NCBI GenBank assembly: GCA_905479995.1
Contig: CAJQON010000057.1
Location: forward strand, 1-39,534
Source of the DNA: an uncultured Flavobacteriales bacterium
GTDB lineage: Bacteria; Bacteroidota; Bacteroidia; Flavobacteriales_E; Vicingaceae
Direction: 5' to 3'
DNA: 39,534 bases
How positions within the stretch are numbered: position 1 is the first letter of the stretch; every line of letters begins with the position of its first letter. The notes under the pieces were generated by a model. The model worked only from the letters and a program-made list of their open reading frames with translations, had not been told where the DNA came from and did no database searches. Positions 15,653 to 27,627 of this stretch are shown piece by piece. Made by a program: the position numbers and the translations under genes.

Positions 15653-16099
15653 TTAGCTTCTCTTTTTGCCGAAAAATTCTTTTAGCAATTCACTACATTC
15701 TTCTCCCAATATCCCATTCAATCTTGCGGTTTTTGGATGCAATAGGTTTTCAGTGTGTTTAGCAAAGCCTCTCGTTTCATCACTAGCACCGTAAACCACT
15801 TTTTTTAATTGCGTCCAATAGCTAGCTCCAGCACACATTACGCATGGCTCTAGCGTTACATATAAAGTACACTCTTTTAAGTATTTTCCTCCTAAAAAAT
15901 CGGTAGCAGAAGTAAAGGCCAGCATTTCGGCATGAGCAGTTACATCGTTCAACCTTTCAGTCATATTATGTGCTCGTGCAATAATTTTATTCTCACAAAC
16001 AATTACAGCTCCAACAGGAACTTCATCTTCATCAAAAGCTTTTTGAGCTTCTTTCAAAGCCTCCTTCATAAAGTGTTCGTCAGTAAATACAGAAAGCAT
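15653..16099 (-). CDS. tadA: tRNA adenosine(34) deaminase
   Basis: Converts A34 to inosine in tRNA-Arg(ACG) so that it can read CGU, CGC and CGA. The 148-residue protein has the zinc deaminase marks: HAEMLAF (about residue 55, zinc His plus catalytic Glu) and TLEPCVMCAGA (about 85, two zinc Cys). FMKEALKEAQKAFDEDEVPVG near the start matches the TadA family. Its ATG overlaps the pssA stop in TAATG, so the two are translationally coupled. Confidence 0.94.
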   Translation of the reverse strand: MLSVFTDEHFMKEALKEAQKAFDEDEVPVGAVIVCENKIIARAHNMTERLNDVTAHAEMLAFTSATDFLGGKYLKECTLYVTLEPCVMCAGASYWTQLKKVVYGASDETRGFAKHTENLLHPKTARLNGILGEECSELLKEFFGKKRS

Positions 16100-16854
16100 T
16101 AGGCTTGAGTTGTTTTTTGTTTAACGGTATATTTGGCAATGATTGACCAAACGATGTAAATTAAAATAATGATAGGAAAAGCAACTAAATTGGTCAACAC
16201 CGATAGCGTAATTAGAATAAACAAAAAGCTCAAGGGAGTTTGGTTTTCCGACCATTTTAAGTTTTTAACTTTTAACGAAAACATTGGTACCTCTGCAATA
16301 AGCATAAATGACAACAACACAGTTAACCCTAGTAAAATTAGTGGATTAGTGAAAATTGGCATAACAAAAGGATTTACATCCACCAATTTCGGTAAATCTG
16401 GATTTAAGGCAACAATTACCGTGAAAATATAAAAAGTAGCATGAGCTGGAACGGCCAAACCAATAAACGATTTAGTTTGTCGCGTATCAATATTAAACTT
16501 GGCTAGCCTGAACGATGATAATATTGGAATTAAAAAAGTAATGAATAACAACCATGGATAATCGCTTAATAATTGTACTGGATTGGCCTCGTGTAAATTT
16601 TTAATAAATTGATACATTAACATTGCTGGAGCAACTCCAAAAGCAACCATGTCAACTAAAGAGTCGAGTTGGGCGCCAAGCGGATTATTTACTTTTAGTA
16701 GTCGGGCAGCAAATCCATCTAAAAAGTCGCAAACGCAACAAATAATTAAGAGGTGAGCGGCTAAATTTAAATTCCCTTCAAAAGTTAGAATAATAGCCCA
16801 ACAGCTTAAAATTAAACTAATGATTGTAATTGAATTTGGAACGGAATTTTTCAT
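16099..16854 (-). CDS. pssA: CDP-diacylglycerol--serine O-phosphatidyltransferase
   Basis: Makes phosphatidylserine, the precursor of phosphatidylethanolamine, in the inner membrane. The 251-residue protein carries the complete CDP-alcohol phosphotransferase motif: DGFAAR, eight residues, G, three residues, D, three residues, D (FLDGFAARLLKVNN, then GAQLDSLVDMVAFG). About seven to eight helices surround it. It is the first gene of the pssA-tadA unit, overlapping tadA by one base, and has a -7 box 23 bases upstream. No phosphatidylserine decarboxylase is adjacent. Confidence 0.93.
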   Translation of the reverse strand: MKNSVPNSITIISLILSCWAIILTFEGNLNLAAHLLIICCVCDFLDGFAARLLKVNNPLGAQLDSLVDMVAFGVAPAMLMYQFIKNLHEANPVQLLSDYPWLLFITFLIPILSSFRLAKFNIDTRQTKSFIGLAVPAHATFYIFTVIVALNPDLPKLVDVNPFVMPIFTNPLILLGLTVLLSFMLIAEVPMFSLKVKNLKWSENQTPLSFLFILITLSVLTNLVAFPIIILIYIVWSIIAKYTVKQKTTQA

Positions 16855-17111: not shown

Positions 17112-18209
17112 ATGGTTAAAATTAAAATCGTCATAGTATTGTTATTACTACAATCTGTAGTCTTTGGGCAAACTTCAGCGCCAAAATTCAGTAATGAATT
17201 TTTGTCTATTGGAGTTGGAGCAAGAGCCTTGGGAATGTCTAACGCATATGTTACTACCGTAAATGATGTAACTTCCGGATATTGGAACCCTGCAGGATTA
17301 ACACAAATGAATAAAGATTTTCAGATTGGGTTGATGCATGCAGAGTATTTTGCAGGAATTGCCAAGTATGATTATGGATCTTTTGCTAGAAAAATTGATA
17401 GCTCTAGTGCATTTGGAATTTCTATTATCCGCTTTGGAGTTGACGATATTCCAAATACCACTCAATTAATTGATTCTGATGGGAATGTTGATTATGATAG
17501 AGTATCTTCCTTTTCTGTAGCAGATTATGCCTTTATGTTTTCTTATGCCAGAAAATCTAAATTACCAGGATTAAGGTATGGAGCAAATGCCAAAATTATT
17601 TATCGAAATGTTGGTGAATTTGCCAATTCTTGGGGGTTTGGAATAGATGCCGGTGTACAGTACGATTTTAGGAGTTGGAAATTTGGGTTAATGGTAAGAG
17701 ACATTACAACCACTTTTAACGCGTGGAGCTTTTCCCTTTCTCAAGAAACTATTGATGTTTTTAATGCGACTAACAATGAAATACCTAGTAATTCTTTAGA
17801 AGTTACCTTGCCAAAAGCAATTTTAGGAATTGGTAAGGAGGTTAAGATTAGCAATAAGTTTAATCTAATAGGAGAAATTGATTTTGACTTTTCAACGGAT
17901 GGAAAAAGAAATGTATTGATTACTGGAGATCCTGTAAGTATTGACCCTCATATGGGTGTTGAGTTGGGTTATAGCCGTATGGTCTTTTTACGACTGGGAG
18001 TTGGTAATTTCCAAAAGGTAACCGATATTTTAAACAATGATAAAATAACATATCAACCCAATTTTGGAATTGGAATTAAGTTTAAAGGCGTAGCACTTGA
18101 TTATGCTTTTTCAGATATTGGTGATCAATCAGATGCGCTTTATTCTAATATCTTTTCCCTAAGATTTGATATAAACAAACAGAATCAGTCTCAAGCTAGC
18201 TACCAATAA
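17112..18209 (+). CDS. PorV/PorQ-family outer-membrane barrel (PorV2-like)
   Basis: A 365-residue barrel of the type IX secretion PorV/PorQ family. The signal peptide ends VVFG before Gln20. The family hallmark follows at once: FLSIGVGARALGMSNAYVTT and SGYWNPAGLTQM (about residues 30-60). PorV shuttles T9SS cargo to the cell surface and works with the PorU sortase. The gene sits 110 bases before a PorU-like C25 peptidase, which supports that role. True PorV usually lies beside a shorter PorU and gldJ, which are absent here, so I favour the second PorV2-PorU2 type; this distinction rests on memory of family traits, not a search. Confidence 0.8.
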   Translation: MVKIKIVIVLLLLQSVVFGQTSAPKFSNEFLSIGVGARALGMSNAYVTTVNDVTSGYWNPAGLTQMNKDFQIGLMHAEYFAGIAKYDYGSFARKIDSSSAFGISIIRFGVDDIPNTTQLIDSDGNVDYDRVSSFSVADYAFMFSYARKSKLPGLRYGANAKIIYRNVGEFANSWGFGIDAGVQYDFRSWKFGLMVRDITTTFNAWSFSLSQETIDVFNATNNEIPSNSLEVTLPKAILGIGKEVKISNKFNLIGEIDFDFSTDGKRNVLITGDPVSIDPHMGVELGYSRMVFLRLGVGNFQKVTDILNNDKITYQPNFGIGIKFKGVALDYAFSDIGDQSDALYSNIFSLRFDINKQNQSQASYQ

Positions 18210-18260
18210 CATTTAAGCAACGCTTACTTACCTCTAAAACCTCTTGTTTTTAACTTTTTA

Positions 18261-18308
18261 ACTCAATAATTCGTACTTTTATTGGTTAACTACGTATTGT
18301 TATTGAGT
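18261..18308. repeat. Inverted repeat before the PorU2-like gene
   Basis: ACTCAATAA (18261-18269) and TTATTGAGT (18300-18308) are perfect 9-base arms, with nested CGTA/TACG between them. The structure ends 11 bases before the TTG start. An imperfect -7 box (TACTTTTA, 18274-18281) lies inside it. Confidence 0.35.
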
Positions 18309-18319
18309 ACTCTATAAAA

Positions 18320-21300
18320 TTGAAAGCAAAAATTCATATAATAATTAAACAAAAGGTTCTAATCCTTTTGTTTGTTTTGGGAGCTGTTGTCTCTGTTTCG
18401 GCACAGCCTTATGGAAATAGTTGGATCAATTATTCTCAGCAATATTATAAATTCAAGATTGCTTCTACAGACATTTGTAGAATAGATTCAGCTACTTTAG
18501 CCAATGCTGGAGTACCAATATCTACAATTAACCCTCAAAATATTCAACTTTTTGCTAGAGGTAGTGAAATCCCTATTTTTATTGAAGGAGAAGGGGATGG
18601 AGTATTTAATACTACCGACTTTATTGAGTTTTATGCCGAAGGCAATGATGGCTGGAATGATGAGCAATTTTACGGAAGTGCTTCAAATCATCCCAACCCA
18701 TATTATAGTCTTATAAATGACACCATAAGTTATTACTTAACATGGAATAGTAGCACTACAAACAATCGGATGACACTGGAGACGGATACTACATTTTCAT
18801 CTTACACCGCAATAACTTATTTTGATAAAGAATCAATTCAACATTACAATAGTACCTTTTTTGATGGTCAAACTGATGCTGCTGGTGCTACATCTATTGG
18901 ATATGTGCCTACAGAAGGTTGGTTTGATGGCCAATTTGAATTAAGTAGCCCATGGTTTCCTACATTTAAAACAAAAAGCATTAACACCAATAATGTTTTT
19001 CAAACAGGAGGAACCGCTCTATTGAAAGCTGTTGTATTGGGTGAGTCGGATTTTGCTGGTTTAGCAATTGATCACCATTTAAGGGTAGATATAGGGCCAA
19101 ATATACTAGACACAACTTATGGTGGATATCAAAAAATTGATATTCAAATGAACATTCCATTAACTGATTTAGGCGCACCAACAACCAATACTACTTTTCA
19201 AGTAATTAATGATTTAGGATCGGGAGCTGACAGGCAAACATTATCATTCATTTCATTAACCTATGCGCATAACATGGACATGGAGGGATTGGCCATATTT
19301 GATAATTTTTACATTAATGATCATCCTACAGAGTCAAAATCCTATTTAAATTTTACCAACTTTTCTAGTGCAGGAGAAGTGCTTTTTTATGATTTAACCA
19401 ACAATAAAAGAATTGAAGTAGTTCAAAATGGACTGAATTACCATTGTTTGCTCCCCAATTCATCATCAGTAAAAAAATGTTATTTGTCTTCCGATGTTCA
19501 GGTGGTTAATGTTTCAACTATAACCCCAGTTAATGGATCAGGTTTCTTTACAAATTACTCTAACCTAGCTACCGACACAGCATTTGTCATCATAACCCAC
19601 CCAAGTTTAATGACTGAAGCGAATGACTATGCCAATTATAGATTGAGCAATTTGGCTGGAAATAACCCTCAAAATGCCATTGTGTTTAACATTGAAGAGC
19701 TTTACGACCAATTTGCTTTTGGGATAGATAAACATCCATATGCTATAAGAGGTTTCGTTGATTTTATTACTGATACTTGGCCGTCACATCCTCACTACTT
19801 ATTCCTTTTAGGGAAATCAATTGAATCAAACGAAAACAGAAAAGTTACAGTGAATTACAATAATAATCTCGTTCCTTCATTTGGAAACCCTGCATCAGAC
19901 ATACTGATTACAGCTGGATTAAATGGAACCAATAACGAGCCTCCAATTCCAACAGGAAGGTTGGCTGCCAATTCGGGCGCTGATATTACATTGTATTTGA
20001 ACAAAATGATGGAACATGAAAACCCTCCTTCACTGAGCCCAACAATAAGTAACAATTGGATGAAAAAAGCATTGCATTTTGGCGGAGGTTCTTCTAGCGC
20101 TGAAGCACAAGGTTTTATGGCTTATTTGAATGGCTACAAAGCTACTTTAGAAGATACTTTATTTGGTGGACAAGTTAATTCTTTTTCAAAAAGTTCTACT
20201 GCACCAATTCAAACATTGCTTTCCGATTCTATTATGGATTTTATTGGCGATGGGGTTTCCTTAATGACCTTTTTTGGACATGCTTCTGCAACAGGAGGGT
20301 TTGACCAAAACATAAACAATCCTAGTCAGTGGCCAGCACAAAATGGACGCTACCCGCTCCTTGTTGGATTAGCTTGTTTTGCTGGGAATATTCATTTGTC
20401 TTCAACAAATAGCACAAGTGAAGAACATGTTTTGATTGCAAACCAAGGTGTTATTGGGTTTTTAGCTTCAATAGATTTGAGTTATGCCAGCACTCTTAAT
20501 TACTATTCTTCAGAATTATACAAACAAATGTCATATAAAAAATATGGACAAAGTATAGGGAATCAAATTAAGGGAACCATCATTAACATCCAAGGAAGTG
20601 GTCAAAATAGAGCAGCTCTTTCGGTTACACTTCATGGAGATCCGTCCTTAAAACTAAATGCATTTGATTTGCCTGACTATATGATTGAAGCACCTACGGT
20701 AACCTTTAGTCCTTCGGTCATCACTTCTAACCTCGATTCATTTGATATTAATGTATTGGTATCTAATCTAGGAAGGGCTGTTGGCGATACTATTATTCTT
20801 GAGTTGACTAGAGAGTTTCCAGGACAATCTTTTGTTGATACAATTCATATTAAACAATTTTCAGGAACCAAATATCAAGAAACAATTACATTTAGATTGC
20901 CTGTAGATTTGATTAGAGGATTGGGCTTGAATACTTTTACCATAGAAGTAGATGCCATAAATGCAGTTGTAGAAAGCTTTGAAAATAATAACACAGTAAC
21001 TAAAACATTAAACATACAATCGGGAGAAATAATTCCAATTTATCCTTATCATTTTATGATAGTTCCTGATCAAGGAGTTACACTTAAAGCCTCGACTGCA
21101 TTCCCTTTTGAACCAGTTAAAGATTACGTTTTTGAGCTAGATACTACCGATTATTTTAATAGCCCAATTAAGCAATCTACATTAATAAGTCATGCTGGAG
21201 GGGTTGTTACATGGACTCCAAGTTTATTGCAAAACATGCCAGATAGCACAGTATATTTTTGGAGAGTTAGTAAAGATTCTGTTGATGCAACAGGATTTAA

Positions 21301-23362
21301 TTGGAGAAATAGGTCATTCCAATACATCCCAAATAAAGAAGGTTGGGAACAAGACCATATTTTCCAATTTGAAAATGATGAGTACCAGTTTTTAAGGCAC
21401 GATAGACCCGGAAGAGATTTTGACTTTGTAAATAATGTTAAGCTTTTAACTGGCCATACTTATGGCTCTGCCGAGTATAGTGAGCTTAATAAAATTGCCT
21501 ATTATTTAGATGGAGGAAGAATAGGAAAAGCAGGATGGACCGTTACAACCGCTGTGCACGTAGCAATATTAGATTCTATAACCTTGGAAGCATGGTCTGC
21601 TGATGAACGAAACTTAGGACAAGCAAATACCGTAGGATTTAATAGTGGTAGTACAAGGCCATTTTTTATGTACCGTTACAACAACCCTGCTCAAATGACA
21701 GCTTTAGTAACTTTATTAAAGGATTCTGTTCCTGTGGGGAATCATATTTTAATGTGGACTTGGCACTATAAAACATTTTTAGGCTATGGTACAGGACTTA
21801 CTCCTGCAGTTAAATCTCAATTAGCCGCTATGGGAGCTCCTTTACTCTCAGCAGTGCAAGATTCTTTACCTTTTTTAATGTACCAAAAAATGGGCTACCC
21901 TTCTACAACACTAGAAGTTATTGGAGACTCTATTAGTCATAAAGACTTAACTTTGAGTAAAGTATTAACAACCAGCGCAGATTATGCTAATTTGTATTCT
22001 TCTGTAATAGGCCCAGCTACTCGATGGGACTCTTTGACGTGGAACATGGAAACGTTAGATTTTCCTACGACAAGAGATAGTTCTGTGCTTAATGTAATTG
22101 GTATTGATACGTTTGGAATTGAAAATATATTGTATAGCAATCTTCCAACAGATTCTAACGAAATAAGGTTGACAAATACCATAGATGCTTCGGTATATCC
22201 TTACTTAAAACTAAACAGCTATTTATCCGATGATTCTTCCCTTACTGCTCCACAATTAGATAGATGGCATGTAACTTTTGAAGACGTACCTGAAGCTGCT
22301 CTAGATCCAGGAATATATTATTCTTTATCTAAAGATACTGCTCAAGAAGGAGAAGACATTACTGTAGAAATTGCAGTAAAAAACATTAGCAGACACAACA
22401 TGGATAGCCTGCTTATTTCATTTGCTATTTTTGACCAAAATGGGAATACGCATTACTTGCCATATGCAAGGCAAAAACCACTCTTGTCTGATAGTATAAT
22501 AATTGCTAAAATAACTTTTCCAACTTTTGGTTTTGCAGGAGTAAATAGCATTTTGGTAGATGTAAATCCGAACAATGATCAATTAGAAAAATATCATTTT
22601 AACAATGTTGCACGAATTCCGTTTTATATACAATCAGATAATATAAACCCTGTGTTGGATGTTACCTTTGATGGAATCCATATTCTTGATGGAGATATCG
22701 TTTCTCCTTTGGCAGAAATTGTAGTAGAATTGACAGATGAAAACTTGTTTTTAATATTAAATGATACAGCTGATTATGAGGTGTTTATTACTGCTCCTTC
22801 TGCTGCAGAAAAAAGAATATATTTTACTGAAGCTAGCTTAGAACGCATGCAATTTATACCTGCTTCATTGCCAAAAAATAATGCAAAAATTATTTTTCAA
22901 GGAGACTTCCCAGAAGATGGAAGTTATAGGTTAAGAGTTCGTGCAACTGACAGAACAAATAACAATTCGGGAGATGTGGATTACACCATTAATTTTGAAG
23001 TAATTAATAGATCTACTATTACTAATATAATGAACTATCCTAATCCATTTACTACTTCAACTCGATTTGTGTTTACATTAACTGGAAGTGAAATTCCAGA
23101 CATCTTTAAAATTCAAATTATGACAATTACGGGTAAAGTTGTTCGAGAAATTCATAAAGAAGAATTGGGGCTTATCCACATTGGTAGAAACATAACCGAC
23201 TTTGCTTGGGATGGGACTGATACCTATGGAGACAGGTTGGCAAATGGATTATATCTTTACCACGTAATTACTCAAATTAATTCAGATGTTATTGAACACC
23301 GAAATACTTCTGCAGATGGATATTTCAAGAAAGGCTTCGGAAAAATGTATTTATTTCGTTAA
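18320..23362 (+). CDS. porU2: C25 (gingipain-type) peptidase, PorU/PorU2-like T9SS sortase
   Basis: A 1680-residue secreted protein. The start must be TTG at 18320, because no ATG precedes the signal peptide, which ends VSVSA before Gln29. A beta-rich N-terminal part leads to a C25 cysteine peptidase domain at about 430-790 with the dyad His654 (FFGHASATGG) and Cys686 (GLACFAGNIH), spaced as in gingipains. Two CARDB-like adhesive modules follow (about 800-900, ending ESFENNNTV, and 1335-1430, with HFNNVARIPF). A FlgD/T9SS-like C-terminal domain starts NYPNPFTTSTRFVF. PorU cuts the C-terminal sorting signal of T9SS cargo and joins the protein to LPS. Ordinary PorU is clearly shorter, so PorU2 is the better fit. 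It lies between a PorV-like and a DUF4421-like barrel, a likely functional unit. Confidence 0.8.
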   Translation: MKAKIHIIIKQKVLILLFVLGAVVSVSAQPYGNSWINYSQQYYKFKIASTDICRIDSATLANAGVPISTINPQNIQLFARGSEIPIFIEGEGDGVFNTTDFIEFYAEGNDGWNDEQFYGSASNHPNPYYSLINDTISYYLTWNSSTTNNRMTLETDTTFSSYTAITYFDKESIQHYNSTFFDGQTDAAGATSIGYVPTEGWFDGQFELSSPWFPTFKTKSINTNNVFQTGGTALLKAVVLGESDFAGLAIDHHLRVDIGPNILDTTYGGYQKIDIQMNIPLTDLGAPTTNTTFQVINDLGSGADRQTLSFISLTYAHNMDMEGLAIFDNFYINDHPTESKSYLNFTNFSSAGEVLFYDLTNNKRIEVVQNGLNYHCLLPNSSSVKKCYLSSDVQVVNVSTITPVNGSGFFTNYSNLATDTAFVIITHPSLMTEANDYANYRLSNLAGNNPQNAIVFNIEELYDQFAFGIDKHPYAIRGFVDFITDTWPSHPHYLFLLGKSIESNENRKVTVNYNNNLVPSFGNPASDILITAGLNGTNNEPPIPTGRLAANSGADITLYLNKMMEHENPPSLSPTISNNWMKKALHFGGGSSSAEAQGFMAYLNGYKATLEDTLFGGQVNSFSKSSTAPIQTLLSDSIMDFIGDGVSLMTFFGHASATGGFDQNINNPSQWPAQNGRYPLLVGLACFAGNIHLSSTNSTSEEHVLIANQGVIGFLASIDLSYASTLNYYSSELYKQMSYKKYGQSIGNQIKGTIINIQGSGQNRAALSVTLHGDPSLKLNAFDLPDYMIEAPTVTFSPSVITSNLDSFDINVLVSNLGRAVGDTIILELTREFPGQSFVDTIHIKQFSGTKYQETITFRLPVDLIRGLGLNTFTIEVDAINAVVESFENNNTVTKTLNIQSGEIIPIYPYHFMIVPDQGVTLKASTAFPFEPVKDYVFELDTTDYFNSPIKQSTLISHAGGVVTWTPSLLQNMPDSTVYFWRVSKDSVDATGFNWRNRSFQYIPNKEGWEQDHIFQFENDEYQFLRHDRPGRDFDFVNNVKLLTGHTYGSAEYSELNKIAYYLDGGRIGKAGWTVTTAVHVAILDSITLEAWSADERNLGQANTVGFNSGSTRPFFMYRYNNPAQMTALVTLLKDSVPVGNHILMWTWHYKTFLGYGTGLTPAVKSQLAAMGAPLLSAVQDSLPFLMYQKMGYPSTTLEVIGDSISHKDLTLSKVLTTSADYANLYSSVIGPATRWDSLTWNMETLDFPTTRDSSVLNVIGIDTFGIENILYSNLPTDSNEIRLTNTIDASVYPYLKLNSYLSDDSSLTAPQLDRWHVTFEDVPEAALDPGIYYSLSKDTAQEGEDITVEIAVKNISRHNMDSLLISFAIFDQNGNTHYLPYARQKPLLSDSIIIAKITFPTFGFAGVNSILVDVNPNNDQLEKYHFNNVARIPFYIQSDNINPVLDVTFDGIHILDGDIVSPLAEIVVELTDENLFLILNDTADYEVFITAPSAAEKRIYFTEASLERMQFIPASLPKNNAKIIFQGDFPEDGSYRLRVRATDRTNNNSGDVDYTINFEVINRSTITNIMNYPNPFTTSTRFVFTLTGSEIPDIFKIQIMTITGKVVREIHKEELGLIHIGRNITDFAWDGTDTYGDRLANGLYLYHVITQINSDVIEHRNTSADGYFKKGFGKMYLFR

Positions 23363-23371
23363 TGTAATTAG

Positions 23372-24397
23372 ATGATAAAATTAGCACTCCTTTTCTTGTT
23401 TTTAGTTTCATTAACGTTGTTTGGTCAATCGCAAGTAGAAATAGATACACACCCTAAAGATACTACGGTTGGAAGTGAGTATTTTACAGATTACTCTGAT
23501 AAATTGCTCTTAAAATTTATGAGTGTTACTAAGCTTAATAGTTTAGAGTTAAAAAATAAAAACAACAACAAAACTATAGATTTAGAACCTTACGGAATAT
23601 CGAGTTTAGGCTTTGGATTTAACTACAAATGGTTGGGGTTAGGTGTTACTTTTGGTTTGCCCATAACTGCCAAAGAAGAAGAGCAGTATGGGAAAACAAA
23701 AAGGTTTGATTTTCAATTAAACATCTATAGTCAAAAAATTGTGATTGATGCTTTTTTTCAACAGTATAAGGGGTTTTATATTAAAAACCCTAGCGAATTA
23801 CTTGGCAATTGGTCTGATGTAAATTTTCCGAAGAGAGAAACAATGAAAACAGCTTCATTTGGTGCTGGAGGCTATTATGTTTTTAACCACAAAAAACTTT
23901 CATACAAAGCCGCATATGTAAGAAATGCTGTGCAAAAGAAAAGTGCTGGGAGTTTTTTATTGGGTGGGTTTTATAATTTTGATGATGCTGGATTTGAGGA
24001 TGATACATCTTCTTTTGTTCCATCTGATTTTCCTATGGAAGTGCAAGATTCTTTCCCGATTAATGCCTATTCAGCTAGAAGTGTTGGAGTGTCTTTCGGA
24101 TATACATACACCTTGGTTTTATTCAAACGGTTTTTTGCCAATTTATCTCTAATTCCTGGTGTTGGAGTAAAAAACATAGTGGTTTATAACAATGGCGAAA
24201 AAATAACAGAATCTAATGGAACAGGAAGATTTAATGCAAGATTAGCTTTAGGGTATGAGAATAAAAACTTTTTAATTGGTTTAACTTCAAACGCTGTAAC
24301 AGGAACTTTTGAATTTCAAGATTATCAAATACAGCCAAGTACACAAAACTTTAAATTCTTTTTAGCAAAGCGGTTTGGCATTAAAAAGAAGAAATAA
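23372..24397 (+). CDS. Outer-membrane protein, DUF4421-like
   Basis: A 341-residue predicted barrel. The signal peptide ends TLFG before Gln19. The mature protein begins with a polar segment, then YFTDYSDKLLLKFM and LEPYGISSLGFGFNYKWLGLGV, which I take as DUF4421 features, and continues with alternating aromatic strands to a C-terminal basic tail (KRFGIKKKK). It starts 9 bases after the C25 peptidase and is therefore co-transcribed with it. A role as surface or T9SS accessory protein is inference from position. Similar proteins in this phylum have no assigned function. Confidence 0.72.
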   Translation: MIKLALLFLFLVSLTLFGQSQVEIDTHPKDTTVGSEYFTDYSDKLLLKFMSVTKLNSLELKNKNNNKTIDLEPYGISSLGFGFNYKWLGLGVTFGLPITAKEEEQYGKTKRFDFQLNIYSQKIVIDAFFQQYKGFYIKNPSELLGNWSDVNFPKRETMKTASFGAGGYYVFNHKKLSYKAAYVRNAVQKKSAGSFLLGGFYNFDDAGFEDDTSSFVPSDFPMEVQDSFPINAYSARSVGVSFGYTYTLVLFKRFFANLSLIPGVGVKNIVVYNNGEKITESNGTGRFNARLALGYENKNFLIGLTSNAVTGTFEFQDYQIQPSTQNFKFFLAKRFGIKKKK

Positions 24398-24523: not shown

Positions 24524-25240
24524 ATGTTAAAGAACTTTTTATTACAAATGACGGTGGGGAGCTCTCCTGTAACTGAAGTTACAGAGGTGATTATTCCTGA
24601 AGAAAAAACATTAACCTTATGGGAATTGGTAAGCTCTGGGGGTGTTGGTGGTGCCGTAATAATGTCAACCTTATTGGTGTTGTCTATAATAGCAGTTTAC
24701 ATTATTATAGAGCGATTTTTAGCCATTAAAAAAGCTGGAAAAGAAGATGCTAACCTGATGAATCAAGTTAAAGATTATATTTTGGAGGGTAAAATTGATG
24801 CAGCAAAAAGTGTATGTAAATCAAATGATTCTCCTGTAGCTCGAATGATAGAAAAAGGAATTACTAGAATAGGAAAACCTTTGCAAGATATTGGAACCGC
24901 TGTTGAAACAACTGGTAAACTTGAGCTGAATAAATTAGAAAAGAACCTTTCTACCTTAGCAACAATTTCTGGAGCAGCACCCATGATTGGCTTCTTAGGA
25001 ACTGTAATAGGAATGATTTTGGTGTTTCATGAAATGGCATCAGGAGGAGGTGGTGTTGATTTGAAAACCTTGTCCAACGGTATATTTACAGCTATGGTAA
25101 CCACTGTTGCAGGTTTAGTTGTTGGAATTATTGCTTACGTAGGTTACAATACTTTAGTAGCAAGAGTAGAAAAAATTGTATTTGTTATGGAGGCAAGAAC
25201 AACCGAATTTTTAGATATTTTACACGAACCTGCAGTATAA
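24524..25240 (+). CDS. exbB: MotA/TolQ/ExbB proton channel family protein
   Basis: The proton-channel subunit that powers TonB-dependent outer-membrane transport. At 238 residues it has a first helix at about 45-67 (STLLVLSIIAVYIIIERF), a cytoplasmic loop, and two further helices at about 150-172 and 190-212 with the family signature GAAPMIGFLGTVIGMI and TTVAGLVVGIIAYVGYN. The N-terminal stretch before helix 1 is unusually polar. It heads exbB-exbD-tonB-folC. TolQ would be equally hard to exclude by sequence alone, but the TonB partner downstream favours ExbB. Confidence 0.92.
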   Translation: MLKNFLLQMTVGSSPVTEVTEVIIPEEKTLTLWELVSSGGVGGAVIMSTLLVLSIIAVYIIIERFLAIKKAGKEDANLMNQVKDYILEGKIDAAKSVCKSNDSPVARMIEKGITRIGKPLQDIGTAVETTGKLELNKLEKNLSTLATISGAAPMIGFLGTVIGMILVFHEMASGGGGVDLKTLSNGIFTAMVTTVAGLVVGIIAYVGYNTLVARVEKIVFVMEARTTEFLDILHEPAV

Positions 25241-25632
25241 TGGCTATTCGATCAAAAAATAGAGTAAGTACCAATTTCAATATGTCGAGCATGACAGATA
25301 TTGTGTTTTTACTATTGGTGTTTTTTATTATTGCATCAACATTAATTAGTCCTAATTCGTTAGATGTTGAGTTGCCAAAAGCAAGCCATGTTGCTCCTAG
25401 GCCACAAACTGTTACAGTAGCAATTACCAAAGAACTTACTTATCACGTAAATGAAAATCAGGTTACTGAAGAAGAATTAGAAGCCCAGTTATTGGCTTTA
25501 GTAGAAGGAGAAGAAGAACCTGGAATTATATTAAAAGCAGACAAATCTGTTCCCATAGAAAATGTTGTTGTGATTATGGACATTGCCAATCGGAATAAAT
25601 TGAAATTGGTTTTGGCAACATCACCTAAGTAA
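25240..25632 (+). CDS. exbD: ExbD/TolR family biopolymer transport protein
   Basis: A 130-residue partner of ExbB. A short cytoplasmic N-terminus is followed by one helix (MTDIVFLLLVFFIIASTLI, about residues 15-35) that carries the essential Asp (SSMTDIVF), then a periplasmic domain ending IANRNKLKLVLATSPK. Start and exbB stop overlap in TAATG, which should keep the two subunits in step. The tonB gene follows after 37 bases. Confidence 0.93.
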   Translation: MAIRSKNRVSTNFNMSSMTDIVFLLLVFFIIASTLISPNSLDVELPKASHVAPRPQTVTVAITKELTYHVNENQVTEEELEAQLLALVEGEEEPGIILKADKSVPIENVVVIMDIANRNKLKLVLATSPK

Positions 25633-25669
25633 TTGTGGAATTTGAAAACTTTCACATCTAATTATTAGA

Positions 25670-26410
25670 ATGGAACTTATACAAGAGGTAAATAGTAGAA
25701 AAGGCTTAATAGGAACAGTACTGTTTCATTTATTACTATTGCTATTATTTGTTCAGTTCGGAATGGGTTACACAGATCCACCTCCAGCTAATGAAGGATC
25801 TATGTTAATTAATTTTGGTAATGCTGGTGGTGAAAGTCCGTCTGAAAATGAAAGCCCATCAGAAGCATCTGCTAGTAGTTCTAGTAATTCAGAACCCTCA
25901 GAATCAAGTAGTCAAGAAAATGTACAAACTACCGAAGCAGAAACAGTAGAAATGAATGCCTCAGAAAATCCTGTTGTTACTGAAAATAGCCCAACAGTAT
26001 CTAACCCGTTGGCTGAAGCTTTGAGCCAGGCCAATAACCCTTCAGAAAGCGCTGAGAATAGTAATTCCAACAGTAACAGTAATTCCAATTCTAATGCGAA
26101 CTCTAATAGTAATGGTCCAAATAATGGTCCAAGCGATGGAATAGGATTTAGTTTAGGAAGTCGAGGAAAAGTGAGTTTTAAAAAGCCAGAAAATCCAACT
26201 CAGGAAGATGGTAATGTGGTAGTAGAAATATGGGTAGATAGAGAAGGCAAAGTTGTTAAAGCTAAAGCTGGAGCAAGAAACTCTACCACTTCTAATGCTA
26301 TTTTATTAAAAAAGGCTGAAGAAGCAGCCTACAAAGCTAAGTTTGCTAAAGATCCTAATGCGCCATTTGAACAAAAAGGAACAATGACTTTTGTTTTCAT
26401 TTTAAATTAA
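25670..26410 (+). CDS. tonB: Energy transducer TonB
   Basis: Carries ExbBD energy to outer-membrane receptors. The 246-residue protein has a short basic N-terminus, one membrane anchor (about 16-33, ending FVQFGMGY), a low-complexity periplasmic linker at about 45-155 and a C-terminal TonB domain (NVVVEIWVDREGKVVKAKAG, AEEAAYKAKFAKDP, KGTMTFVFIL). The linker is unusual: it is Ser/Glu then Ser/Asn-rich, including about nine Ser-Asn pairs, in place of the Pro-Lys/Pro-Glu stalk of E. coli TonB. The stop overlaps the folC ATG in TAATG. Confidence 0.9.
   Translation: MELIQEVNSRKGLIGTVLFHLLLLLLFVQFGMGYTDPPPANEGSMLINFGNAGGESPSENESPSEASASSSSNSEPSESSSQENVQTTEAETVEMNASENPVVTENSPTVSNPLAEALSQANNPSESAENSNSNSNSNSNSNANSNSNGPNNGPSDGIGFSLGSRGKVSFKKPENPTQEDGNVVVEIWVDREGKVVKAKAGARNSTTSNAILLKKAEEAAYKAKFAKDPNAPFEQKGTMTFVFILN
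26056..26115 (+). repeat. Ser-Asn codon repeat in the TonB linker
   Basis: Alternating AGT/TCC/TCT and AAT/AAC codons encode about nine Ser-Asn pairs in a row. The codons vary, so the repeat is kept at protein level more than at DNA level, suggesting selection for a flexible polar linker. Confidence 0.8.
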
Positions 26411-27627
26411 TGACGTTTCAAGAAACCTTAGACTATCTATTTTCACAATTGCCCATGTATCAACGAATGGGAAAGGCTGCTTATAAGTCTGACTTAAGTA
26501 ATACGCTTCGATTGTGCGAAATATTAGATCATCCAGAAACAAAATTTAAAAGCATACATCTTGCAGGAACCAATGGGAAAGGATCTACTTCTCACATGAT
26601 TGCTTCTGTATTGCAGGAGGCAGGATATAAGGTTGGATTATATACATCGCCACATTTAGTAGATTTTAGAGAACGAATTAAAATTAACGGAGCACTAATT
26701 AGTGAAGTAGAGGTGGTAAATTTTGTGGAGGAGTATAAGGAAGATTTTGAGGGGATTGATTTGTCTTTTTTTGAATGGACAGTTGGTTTAGCATTTTCTT
26801 ATTTTGCCAAAAGTGATGTTGATATTGCTATTATAGAGACAGGCTTAGGTGGTAGGTTAGACTCTACCAATGTAGTTGTTCCTGAGTTATCTGTAGTAAC
26901 CAATATTGGCTTAGATCATACTCAGTTTTTAGGAAATACCATTGCTACAATTGCTGCCGAAAAAGCAGGAATTTTTAAAGCTCATGTTCCAATAGTAATA
27001 GGAGAAAAGCAACAAGAAACAAGTTCAGTTTTTTTTGAAAAGGCTGCAGAAGTCAATGCGCCTTTAGTTTTTGCTGAAGACATTCAGGTTGAAATGGTTG
27101 AATGTGATTTAAAAGGGAATTACCAGGTTAAAAATTGTAAAACTGCATTAGTGACTTTGATGAAGGCAAGGGAGTTGGAATGGGATATTTCTGATGTTGC
27201 GATAAAGAAAGGTTTTTTAAACGTAGTAAAAAATACTGGTTTGTTGGGAAGGTGGCAGGTTTTGCAGCAAAATCCTACAATTATATGCGATACTGGTCAT
27301 AATGATGCAGGCATTAAATTTATAACTGATCAGCTCAAAGAAGTAGTTACTGATAAATTACATATAGTTTTTGGAGTGGTAAATGATAAATCTATTGATA
27401 AGGTGTTGGCATTGTTACCCAAAGATGCTCAATATTATTTTTGCAAAGCAAATATACCAAGAGCATTAGAGGCTCAGCAGTTGGCAAAATTGGCTAGTAC
27501 TCAAGGTTTAGTTGGAGAAGTGTACGATTCGGTATTGTATGCGCTTGATGCTGCAAAAATGGCAGCAAAACAATGTGATACTATTTTTGTAGGTGGAAGT
27601 ACGTTTGTTGTTGCAGAAGTATTGTAA
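26410..27627 (+). CDS. folC: Bifunctional folylpolyglutamate / dihydrofolate synthase
   Basis: Adds glutamate to dihydropteroate and to folates. The 405-residue Mur-ligase-type protein has the ATP loop AGTNGKGSTSHM (about residue 51), the second ATP/Mg region ETGLGGRLDSTNVV (about 138), TNIGLDHTQFLG (about 165) and the C-terminal ligase domain with CDTGHNDAGIK (about 294). FolC is slightly shorter here than the E. coli enzyme but all core motifs are present. It begins inside the tonB stop and ends the exbB operon at a strong terminator. The link to TonB is probably positional, not functional. Confidence 0.94.
   Translation: MTFQETLDYLFSQLPMYQRMGKAAYKSDLSNTLRLCEILDHPETKFKSIHLAGTNGKGSTSHMIASVLQEAGYKVGLYTSPHLVDFRERIKINGALISEVEVVNFVEEYKEDFEGIDLSFFEWTVGLAFSYFAKSDVDIAIIETGLGGRLDSTNVVVPELSVVTNIGLDHTQFLGNTIATIAAEKAGIFKAHVPIVIGEKQQETSSVFFEKAAEVNAPLVFAEDIQVEMVECDLKGNYQVKNCKTALVTLMKARELEWDISDVAIKKGFLNVVKNTGLLGRWQVLQQNPTIICDTGHNDAGIKFITDQLKEVVTDKLHIVFGVVNDKSIDKVLALLPKDAQYYFCKANIPRALEAQQLAKLASTQGLVGEVYDSVLYALDAAKMAAKQCDTIFVGGSTFVVAEVL

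Follow-up and report, generated by a model that had tools for sequence, protein, structure and literature searches.

The PorV2-PorU2 gene pair encodes a widespread second form of a bacterial enzyme that processes surface proteins, together with its partner in the membrane. The pair can outlive the translocon of the type IX secretion system (T9SS), since a genus without detectable SprA (g39) keeps the pair intact in 11 of 17 genomes. In the genome from which it is described here, the pair is an accessory one beside an ordinary PorU-PorV set, because canonical PorU and PorV sit on another contig. We lean, with modest confidence, towards the view that PorV2-PorU2 serves as an accessory module for processing at the outer membrane and is related to the PorU-PorV attachment pair of the T9SS.

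The window, the whole stretch of 39,534 nucleotides analyzed, is contig C57 of a 3.1-Mb genome in 59 contigs that is 98.2% complete. ORF calling and family profiles place PorV2, PorU2 and a DUF4421 gene consecutively on the plus strand at 17112-24397 (Table 1), in agreement with the initial annotation, which had described a run of a PorV/PorQ barrel, a 1680-residue C25 peptidase and a further barrel. Both proteins of the pair score far above the curated cut-offs of NCBIfam families for putative T9SS proteins, NF052324 (PorU2) and NF052325 (PorV2), of which the former is a model of 879 positions covering only the N-terminal half of PorU2. Against the canonical models both fall under the cut-off (PorU, NF033707, 202.9 bits vs 420; PorV, NF033710, 40 bits vs 250), and PorV2 is likewise under the cut-off of the PorQ model (71 bits). 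Searching the PDB by phmmer with single window proteins matched PorV2 to PorV (6h3i, E 0.00037) and returned no solved relatives of PorU2 or DUF4421. Among the best 80 of at least 507 relatives, the closest named ones are in a Vicingaceae bin (L094, 68% identity) and a Vicingus serpentipes metagenome-assembled genome (L095, 61%).

Table 1 Features of the PorV2-PorU2 locus and its flanks, in window coordinates
Feature	Position	Strand	Details
Divergent CDP-alcohol phosphatidyltransferase (PssA-like)	16099..16854	-	TIGR00473 91 bits, below cut-off 107
PorV2, PorV/PorQ-family outer-membrane barrel	17112..18209	+	365 aa; NF052325 520.5 bits, cut-off 325; signal peptide by eye
PorU2, C25 cysteine peptidase	18320..23362	+	1680 aa, TTG start; NF052324 727.4 bits, cut-off 450
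Peptidase C25 domain, PorU2 residues 422-779	19583..20656	+	PF01364 167 bits
Catalytic His654 codon, PorU2	20279..20281	+	H in 138/138 aligned homologues
Catalytic Cys686 codon, PorU2	20375..20377	+	C in 138/138 aligned homologues
CARDB module, PorU2 residues 795-895	20702..21004	+	PF07705 30.4 bits
ILEI-like region, PorU2 residues 1078-1193, diverged	21551..21898	+	placed by alignment
PorU-type C-terminal domain, PorU2 residues 1570-1680, proposed PorV2 dock	23027..23359	+	
DUF4421 outer-membrane barrel, clade-specific neighbour	23372..24397	+	341 aa; PF14391 176.9 bits, cut-off 32.1
ExbB, ExbD, unplaced ORF, Mur-ligase-family gene; downstream, probably unrelated	24524..27627	+	Pfam

A profile search of the whole genome located the canonical set on contig C45, where PorU (1342.7 bits) adjoins PorV (502 bits); upstream of them on the other strand lie a PorP/SprF-family gene (242 bits) and then GldJ (472 bits, cut-off 458), which puts gldJ two genes from canonical PorU. 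PorQ (367 bits) is on contig C13, SprA is present, and scoring 150 of 185 candidates gave 140 type A sorting-domain matches at E<=0.01. The proposal that the window holds an accessory PorV/PorU-type set is thus upheld, as is the remark that the standard neighbour gldJ is missing from it: the genes flanking the run are the PssA-like gene and ExbB. The two sets also differ in gene order (PorV2-PorU2 vs PorU-PorV) and in the length of the peptidase, PorU2 exceeding the canonical PorU of this genome by about 400 aa. A further PorV/PorQ-family protein on contig C46 (L080:6059-7141, minus strand; 140 bits) is below the PorV, PorQ and PorV2 cut-offs.

PorU2 shares with the canonical PorU of P. gingivalis and F. 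johnsoniae the C25 dyad, PorU-type N- and C-terminal parts and a barrel partner. In a family-profile search, His654 and Cys686 aligned with a His and a Cys of P. gingivalis PorU (PDB 6za2, E 4.8e-10); the dyad is intact, and the profile also matches gingipains in the PDB. The 138 homologues in which both residues occur are non-identical members of the family, each 1000 aa or longer and aligned; canonical PorUs are among them, and a few of these rows are partial. Both ends of PorU are kept, the N-terminal region with the C25 domain corresponding to positions 4-734 of the PorU model and the C-terminal part to 872-1081. The extra length is an insert ahead of the C-terminal domain that comprises CARDB, a diverged ILEI-like region and Ig folds; the initial annotation had spoken of CARDB modules, and a single one was detected. 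The C-terminal 244 aa score 81 bits over NF033707 positions 874-1081, while the whole protein does not reach the PorU cut-off, and 22 bits in the type A model TIGR04183 (cut-off 23). The best-conserved stretch of PorU2 is its C-terminal 120 residues, with a mean identity to the window protein of 0.54-0.61 compared with 0.17-0.45 elsewhere in a profile that leaves out three canonical PorUs.

The ILEI family (PF15711) was matched at E<=1 in 20 of 36 PorU2 members scanned (best E 3.7e-9), with L071 (62 bits) and L104 (35 bits) over the cut-off of 27 and L038 and L068 under it, and was unmatched by Pfam in the window PorU2, the two g39 PorU2s scanned and the genome's canonical PorU. The larger region around the ILEI-like part of the window protein is homologous to its ILEI-positive counterpart in L104 (BLASTP E 7e-25), and in the core itself 14 of 107 aligned residues are identical. 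A profile built from the C-terminal half of PorU2 gave a weak PDB match to FAM3B (E 0.18); an alignment of 16 varied PorU2s was too diverse to serve as a scan profile, and Foldseek with the C-terminal half returned multi-Ig proteins at an uninformative TM of 0.1-0.17, with PorU ranked 34th. Glycan binding is a possible role of the region, because the FAM3 and POMGnT1 stem domains of ILEI-type fold bind GlcNAc (PMC9802357). The ILEI-like region is missing from short forms of PorU2 (1080-1345 aa) at L042, L043, L046 and L051, in genomes (G249, G190 and G355) that have no PorV2 over the cut-off.

PorV2 is a frequent genetic partner of PorU2 in many lineages. In 71 of the 80 named loci (the best 80 of at least 507 relatives, as in all named-locus counts below), it is the gene immediately upstream of PorU2 and has the same orientation, and 32 of the 71 linked pairs overlap by 4 bp; for six of the nine loci without an upstream PorV2, 700 bp or more of sequence is available on that side. 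A further 49 PorU-family loci from the phylum sample, picked to span scores and including canonical PorUs, have a strong PorV2 (>300 bits) in 14 cases. The 80-locus and 49-locus sets are not independent: L057 and L165 read alike, and their contigs are equally long. Taken with this linkage, the conserved C-terminal domain and the dyad would fit a protease or transpeptidase held at the outer membrane.

Several other neighbours recur. Tandem PorU2 or PorU2-like copies, at times flanking PorV2 on both sides, were seen at L050, L055, L228, L074 and L091, and several loci of Flavobacterium-like type have a gene with an Lnb_N domain after PorV2. Members of the PssA-like cluster are within 46 of the 80 named loci, Lnt is within 21, and in many lineages a PssA-like gene is close to PorV2 or divergently oriented to it, including ones lacking PorU2 (L174-L177, L185, L186, L188). 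We dropped the idea that PssA beside PorV2 is a clue to a lipid anchor, as PurS, LptB, Lnt and HemH, all housekeeping, recur there too; the occurrence of the PssA-PorV2 order without PorU2 weakens it further.

The DUF4421 gene is a local add-on to PorV2-PorU2. It follows PorU2 in six of the 80 named loci, all from the window's clade (L094, L096, L097, L098, L099 and L101), and is absent downstream of PorU2 in L095 of the same clade; of the remaining 74 named loci, 18 are too short, and none of the 56 with 1.2 kb or more of downstream sequence has it, nor was it found in any of the 49 additional PorU-family loci, which rules out a general DUF4421-PorU2 linkage. AlphaFold2 modelled the protein from seven sequences as an outer-membrane barrel (pLDDT 79), for which Foldseek returned low-TM barrels. 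The initial annotation had suggested the third barrel as a partner of the pair: the barrel and its linkage within the window's clade hold up, and the generality of that linkage does not. That DUF4421 is a functional third partner would agree with its predicted structure and its position directly 3' of PorU2 in six of seven other close relatives, yet we consider this quite improbable, given the lack of the gene at the other 56 named loci with room for it and the presence in the same genome of a second DUF4421 gene (132 bits), which is on another contig (C15:172476-173357) and so not next to PorU2.

The distribution of the pair was examined in one draw of 392 genomes of the phylum, searched for the PorU family, PorV2 and SprA, with the resulting sets intersected; at most two candidates per genome were scored for the PorU family and SprA, and copy numbers are lower bounds. 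At E<=1e-10 a PorU-family match was found in 280 genomes, and SprA was found in 319. PorU2 was over its cut-off in 34 genomes and PorV2 in 72, with both in 26, leaving PorV2 without PorU2 in 46 of its 72 genomes and PorU2 without PorV2 over the cut-off in eight of 34. SprA accompanies the PorU family in 279 of the 280 genomes, the sole exception being G269, and 40 of the 319 SprA-bearing genomes have no PorU-family match. Three SprA-bearing genomes (G007, G091 and G126) have PorU2 and no canonical PorU over the cut-off, and six SprA-bearing genomes of f37 have no canonical PorU over the cut-off and their own PorU2-like protein below the PorU2 cut-off. A PorU2-like C25 peptidase is also encoded on an 88-kb plasmid of Runella rosea (NZ_CP030852.1, 47474-49963; 27% identity over 51% of the query).

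The genus of G269, g39, breaks the rule that the PorU family occurs only where SprA is found, which the other 279 of the 280 sampled genomes obey. SprA was over the cut-off in none of 17 g39 genomes, and the same search found it in nine of nine genomes from nine other genera of the same family. Canonical PorU was found in none of the 17 with the PorU2 model, which detects PorU in other genomes searched alongside; in G269, the only g39 genome searched with the models for PorU itself and for PorV (NF033710), neither was found. An intact PorU2 with its dyad is present in 11 of the 17 (G269, G392, G395-G398, G400-G402, G405 and G406), in all 11 of which PorV2 lies upstream (10 by ORF, one by tblastn). 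PorU2 is split or fragmented in four (G393, G394, G403 and G404) and absent in two (G399 and G407), and is thus dispensable. The g39 PorU2s form one clade (support 1.0) nested among the PorU2s of the family in our tree, so their retention looks vertical.

Type A cargo is nearly absent from the 13 g39 genomes tested, each of which has 0-2 type A sorting-domain matches at E<=0.01, compared with 76 in the SprA-bearing relative G410 and nine in SprA-bearing G007; the model also matches three of 14 control genomes, one over the cut-off. Subtraction leaves 11 of the 13 g39 genomes with a match over the cut-off. Most of these matches are probably PorU2 itself, because its C-terminal domain scores 22.8-25.6 bits in the type A model (four g39 proteins tested, cut-off 23) and 11 of the 13 genomes carry an intact PorU2. 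The suggestion that the pair serves its own cargo class found no support; instead, a genus without detectable SprA and with almost no type A cargo keeps it.

If the g39 pair were a decaying leftover of a reduced T9SS, it would be uninformative, and the genomes with absent or fragmented PorU2 could be read in that way, although three of the four with fragments are assemblies of less than 90% completeness. Against decay stand the full-length peptidase with its dyad in 11 genomes, the retention of PorV2 there, a nearly unchanged C-terminal domain and the substitution rates: of the 14 most similar pairs, nine were saturated and the five for which dS was finite gave a dN/dS of 0.047-0.083, with about 0.05 in the three closest pairs. 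We regard decay as very improbable.

Loss of the whole T9SS in g39 was rejected, as GldK, GldL, GldM and GldN are over the cut-off in G269. There, within the 0.8 Mb (24% of the genome) sampled, gldKLMN is complete in one run followed by a PorG-like gene (L244:6896-12061). The scores are 374.6 bits for GldK (cut-off 350), 70.9 for GldL (68.3), 285.5 for GldM (180) and 113.5 for GldN (85.9), and the PorG-like gene, at 76.8 bits, is below its cut-off of 130, with no cysteine seen. Type A export in F. johnsoniae requires both GldK Cys343 and the cysteines of PorG (PMC12635249). No further protein with a PorU2-type C-terminal domain was found in the sampled 24% at E<=1. G269 thus keeps the motor and ring, has almost no type A cargo, and gave no match for SprA, PorV or PorU over the cut-offs.

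The GldKLMN retained in G269 is a counterpoint to SprA independence, since it may belong to a machine of T9SS type whose translocon went unseen. Specifically, the SprA-less genomes could use a divergent translocon missed by the SprA model, with PorU2 crossing a T9SS-type pore driven by GldKLMN, and the T9SS-type C-terminal domain kept in PorU2 would suit such a route. We think this unlikely, since SprA is either clear or absent across the phylum, the weakest best E-value among the 319 genomes being 9.6e-106 for a limit of 1e-20, and the g39 genomes at E<=0.01 gave matches of just 50-84 positions and 16.7-19.3 bits, in eight of the 17.

By the accessory processing module that we favour, we mean the following. 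The C-terminal domain of PorU2 would stay uncleaved and dock the peptidase on PorV2 in the manner of PorU on PorV. In P. gingivalis, PorU retains its C-terminal domain and remains attached to PorV, and PorZ brings A-LPS (PMC10202324; PMC11285876). Docking would keep the active site at the outer membrane, where PorU2 may cleave clients and perhaps transpeptidate them onto an acceptor, which the inserted array could bind, taking the role of PorZ in cis. This work may not depend strictly on the SprA translocon or on ordinary type A cargo, judging by gene content, because the pair persists in g39, where neither SprA nor canonical PorU was detected and type A cargo is almost lacking. Points against the view are that each gene also occurs without the other over the cut-offs, that PorV2 is strong in just 14 of the 49 additional loci, that PorU2 is dispensable in g39, and that Pfam detects no ILEI domain in the window or the two g39 members scanned.

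A more conventional account makes PorU2 and PorV2 an ordinary second T9SS sortase and shuttle that process part of the SprA-exported type A cargo. The NCBIfam names imply a T9SS role, SprA is present in nearly all PorU-family genomes, the window's genome has its 140 sorting-domain matches, and PorU2 appears without canonical PorU in G007, G091 and G126 and is the sole PorU-family match in G410 with its 76. Yet genomes with SprA and no PorU-family match at E<=1e-10, 40 of 319, make PorU2 as the only PorU weak evidence, and g39 keeps the pair with no detectable SprA and almost no type A cargo. We rate this account as somewhat unlikely.

PorU2 and PorV2 are already named in NCBIfam as putative T9SS parts; to these families the present analysis adds the ILEI-like insert, counts of gene linkage and the finding that the pair can occur where SprA is not detected. 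The pair resembles two known arrangements in part. PorP/SprF proteins are likewise specialized shuttles beside PorV, for type B C-terminal domains (PMC12618676), whereas PorV2 is a PorV/PorQ-family protein that is paired with a peptidase instead of an adhesin. In PorZ-PorQ, a glycan-presenting protein is docked through its C-terminal domain on a PorV-like barrel (PMC10202324), whereas PorU2 would join a peptidase and a possible glycan-binding region in one chain. A literature search, with preprints and most subscription papers outside it, returned no publication on PorU2 or DUF4421 and nothing on point about a second PorU or a SprA-less T9SS; in the two Bacteroidota papers matched by the string "PorV2", it is a superscript or footnote mark, not a protein. 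Going by literature listings, neither the persistence of the pair without SprA nor the ILEI-like insert seems to have been described.

PorU-type sortases are known as processors of SprA-delivered cargo, and g39 keeps PorV2-PorU2 without detectable SprA or canonical PorU. The genus, with no PorV in the one genome tested, offers a natural background for studying the pair free of a confounding canonical system, and for the PorU2 family, automatic annotation as "type IX secretion system sortase" may be misleading. A bolder version, which we consider rather unlikely, makes PorV2-PorU2 a SprA-independent peptidase or transpeptidase machine of the outer membrane, which PorU2 would reach by a non-SprA route, possibly still driven by GldKLMN, to act on non-type-A clients and bind its acceptor through the ILEI-like domain. 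If this is true, the SprA-less genus would run a reduced T9SS consisting of the motor, the ring and PorV2-PorU2.
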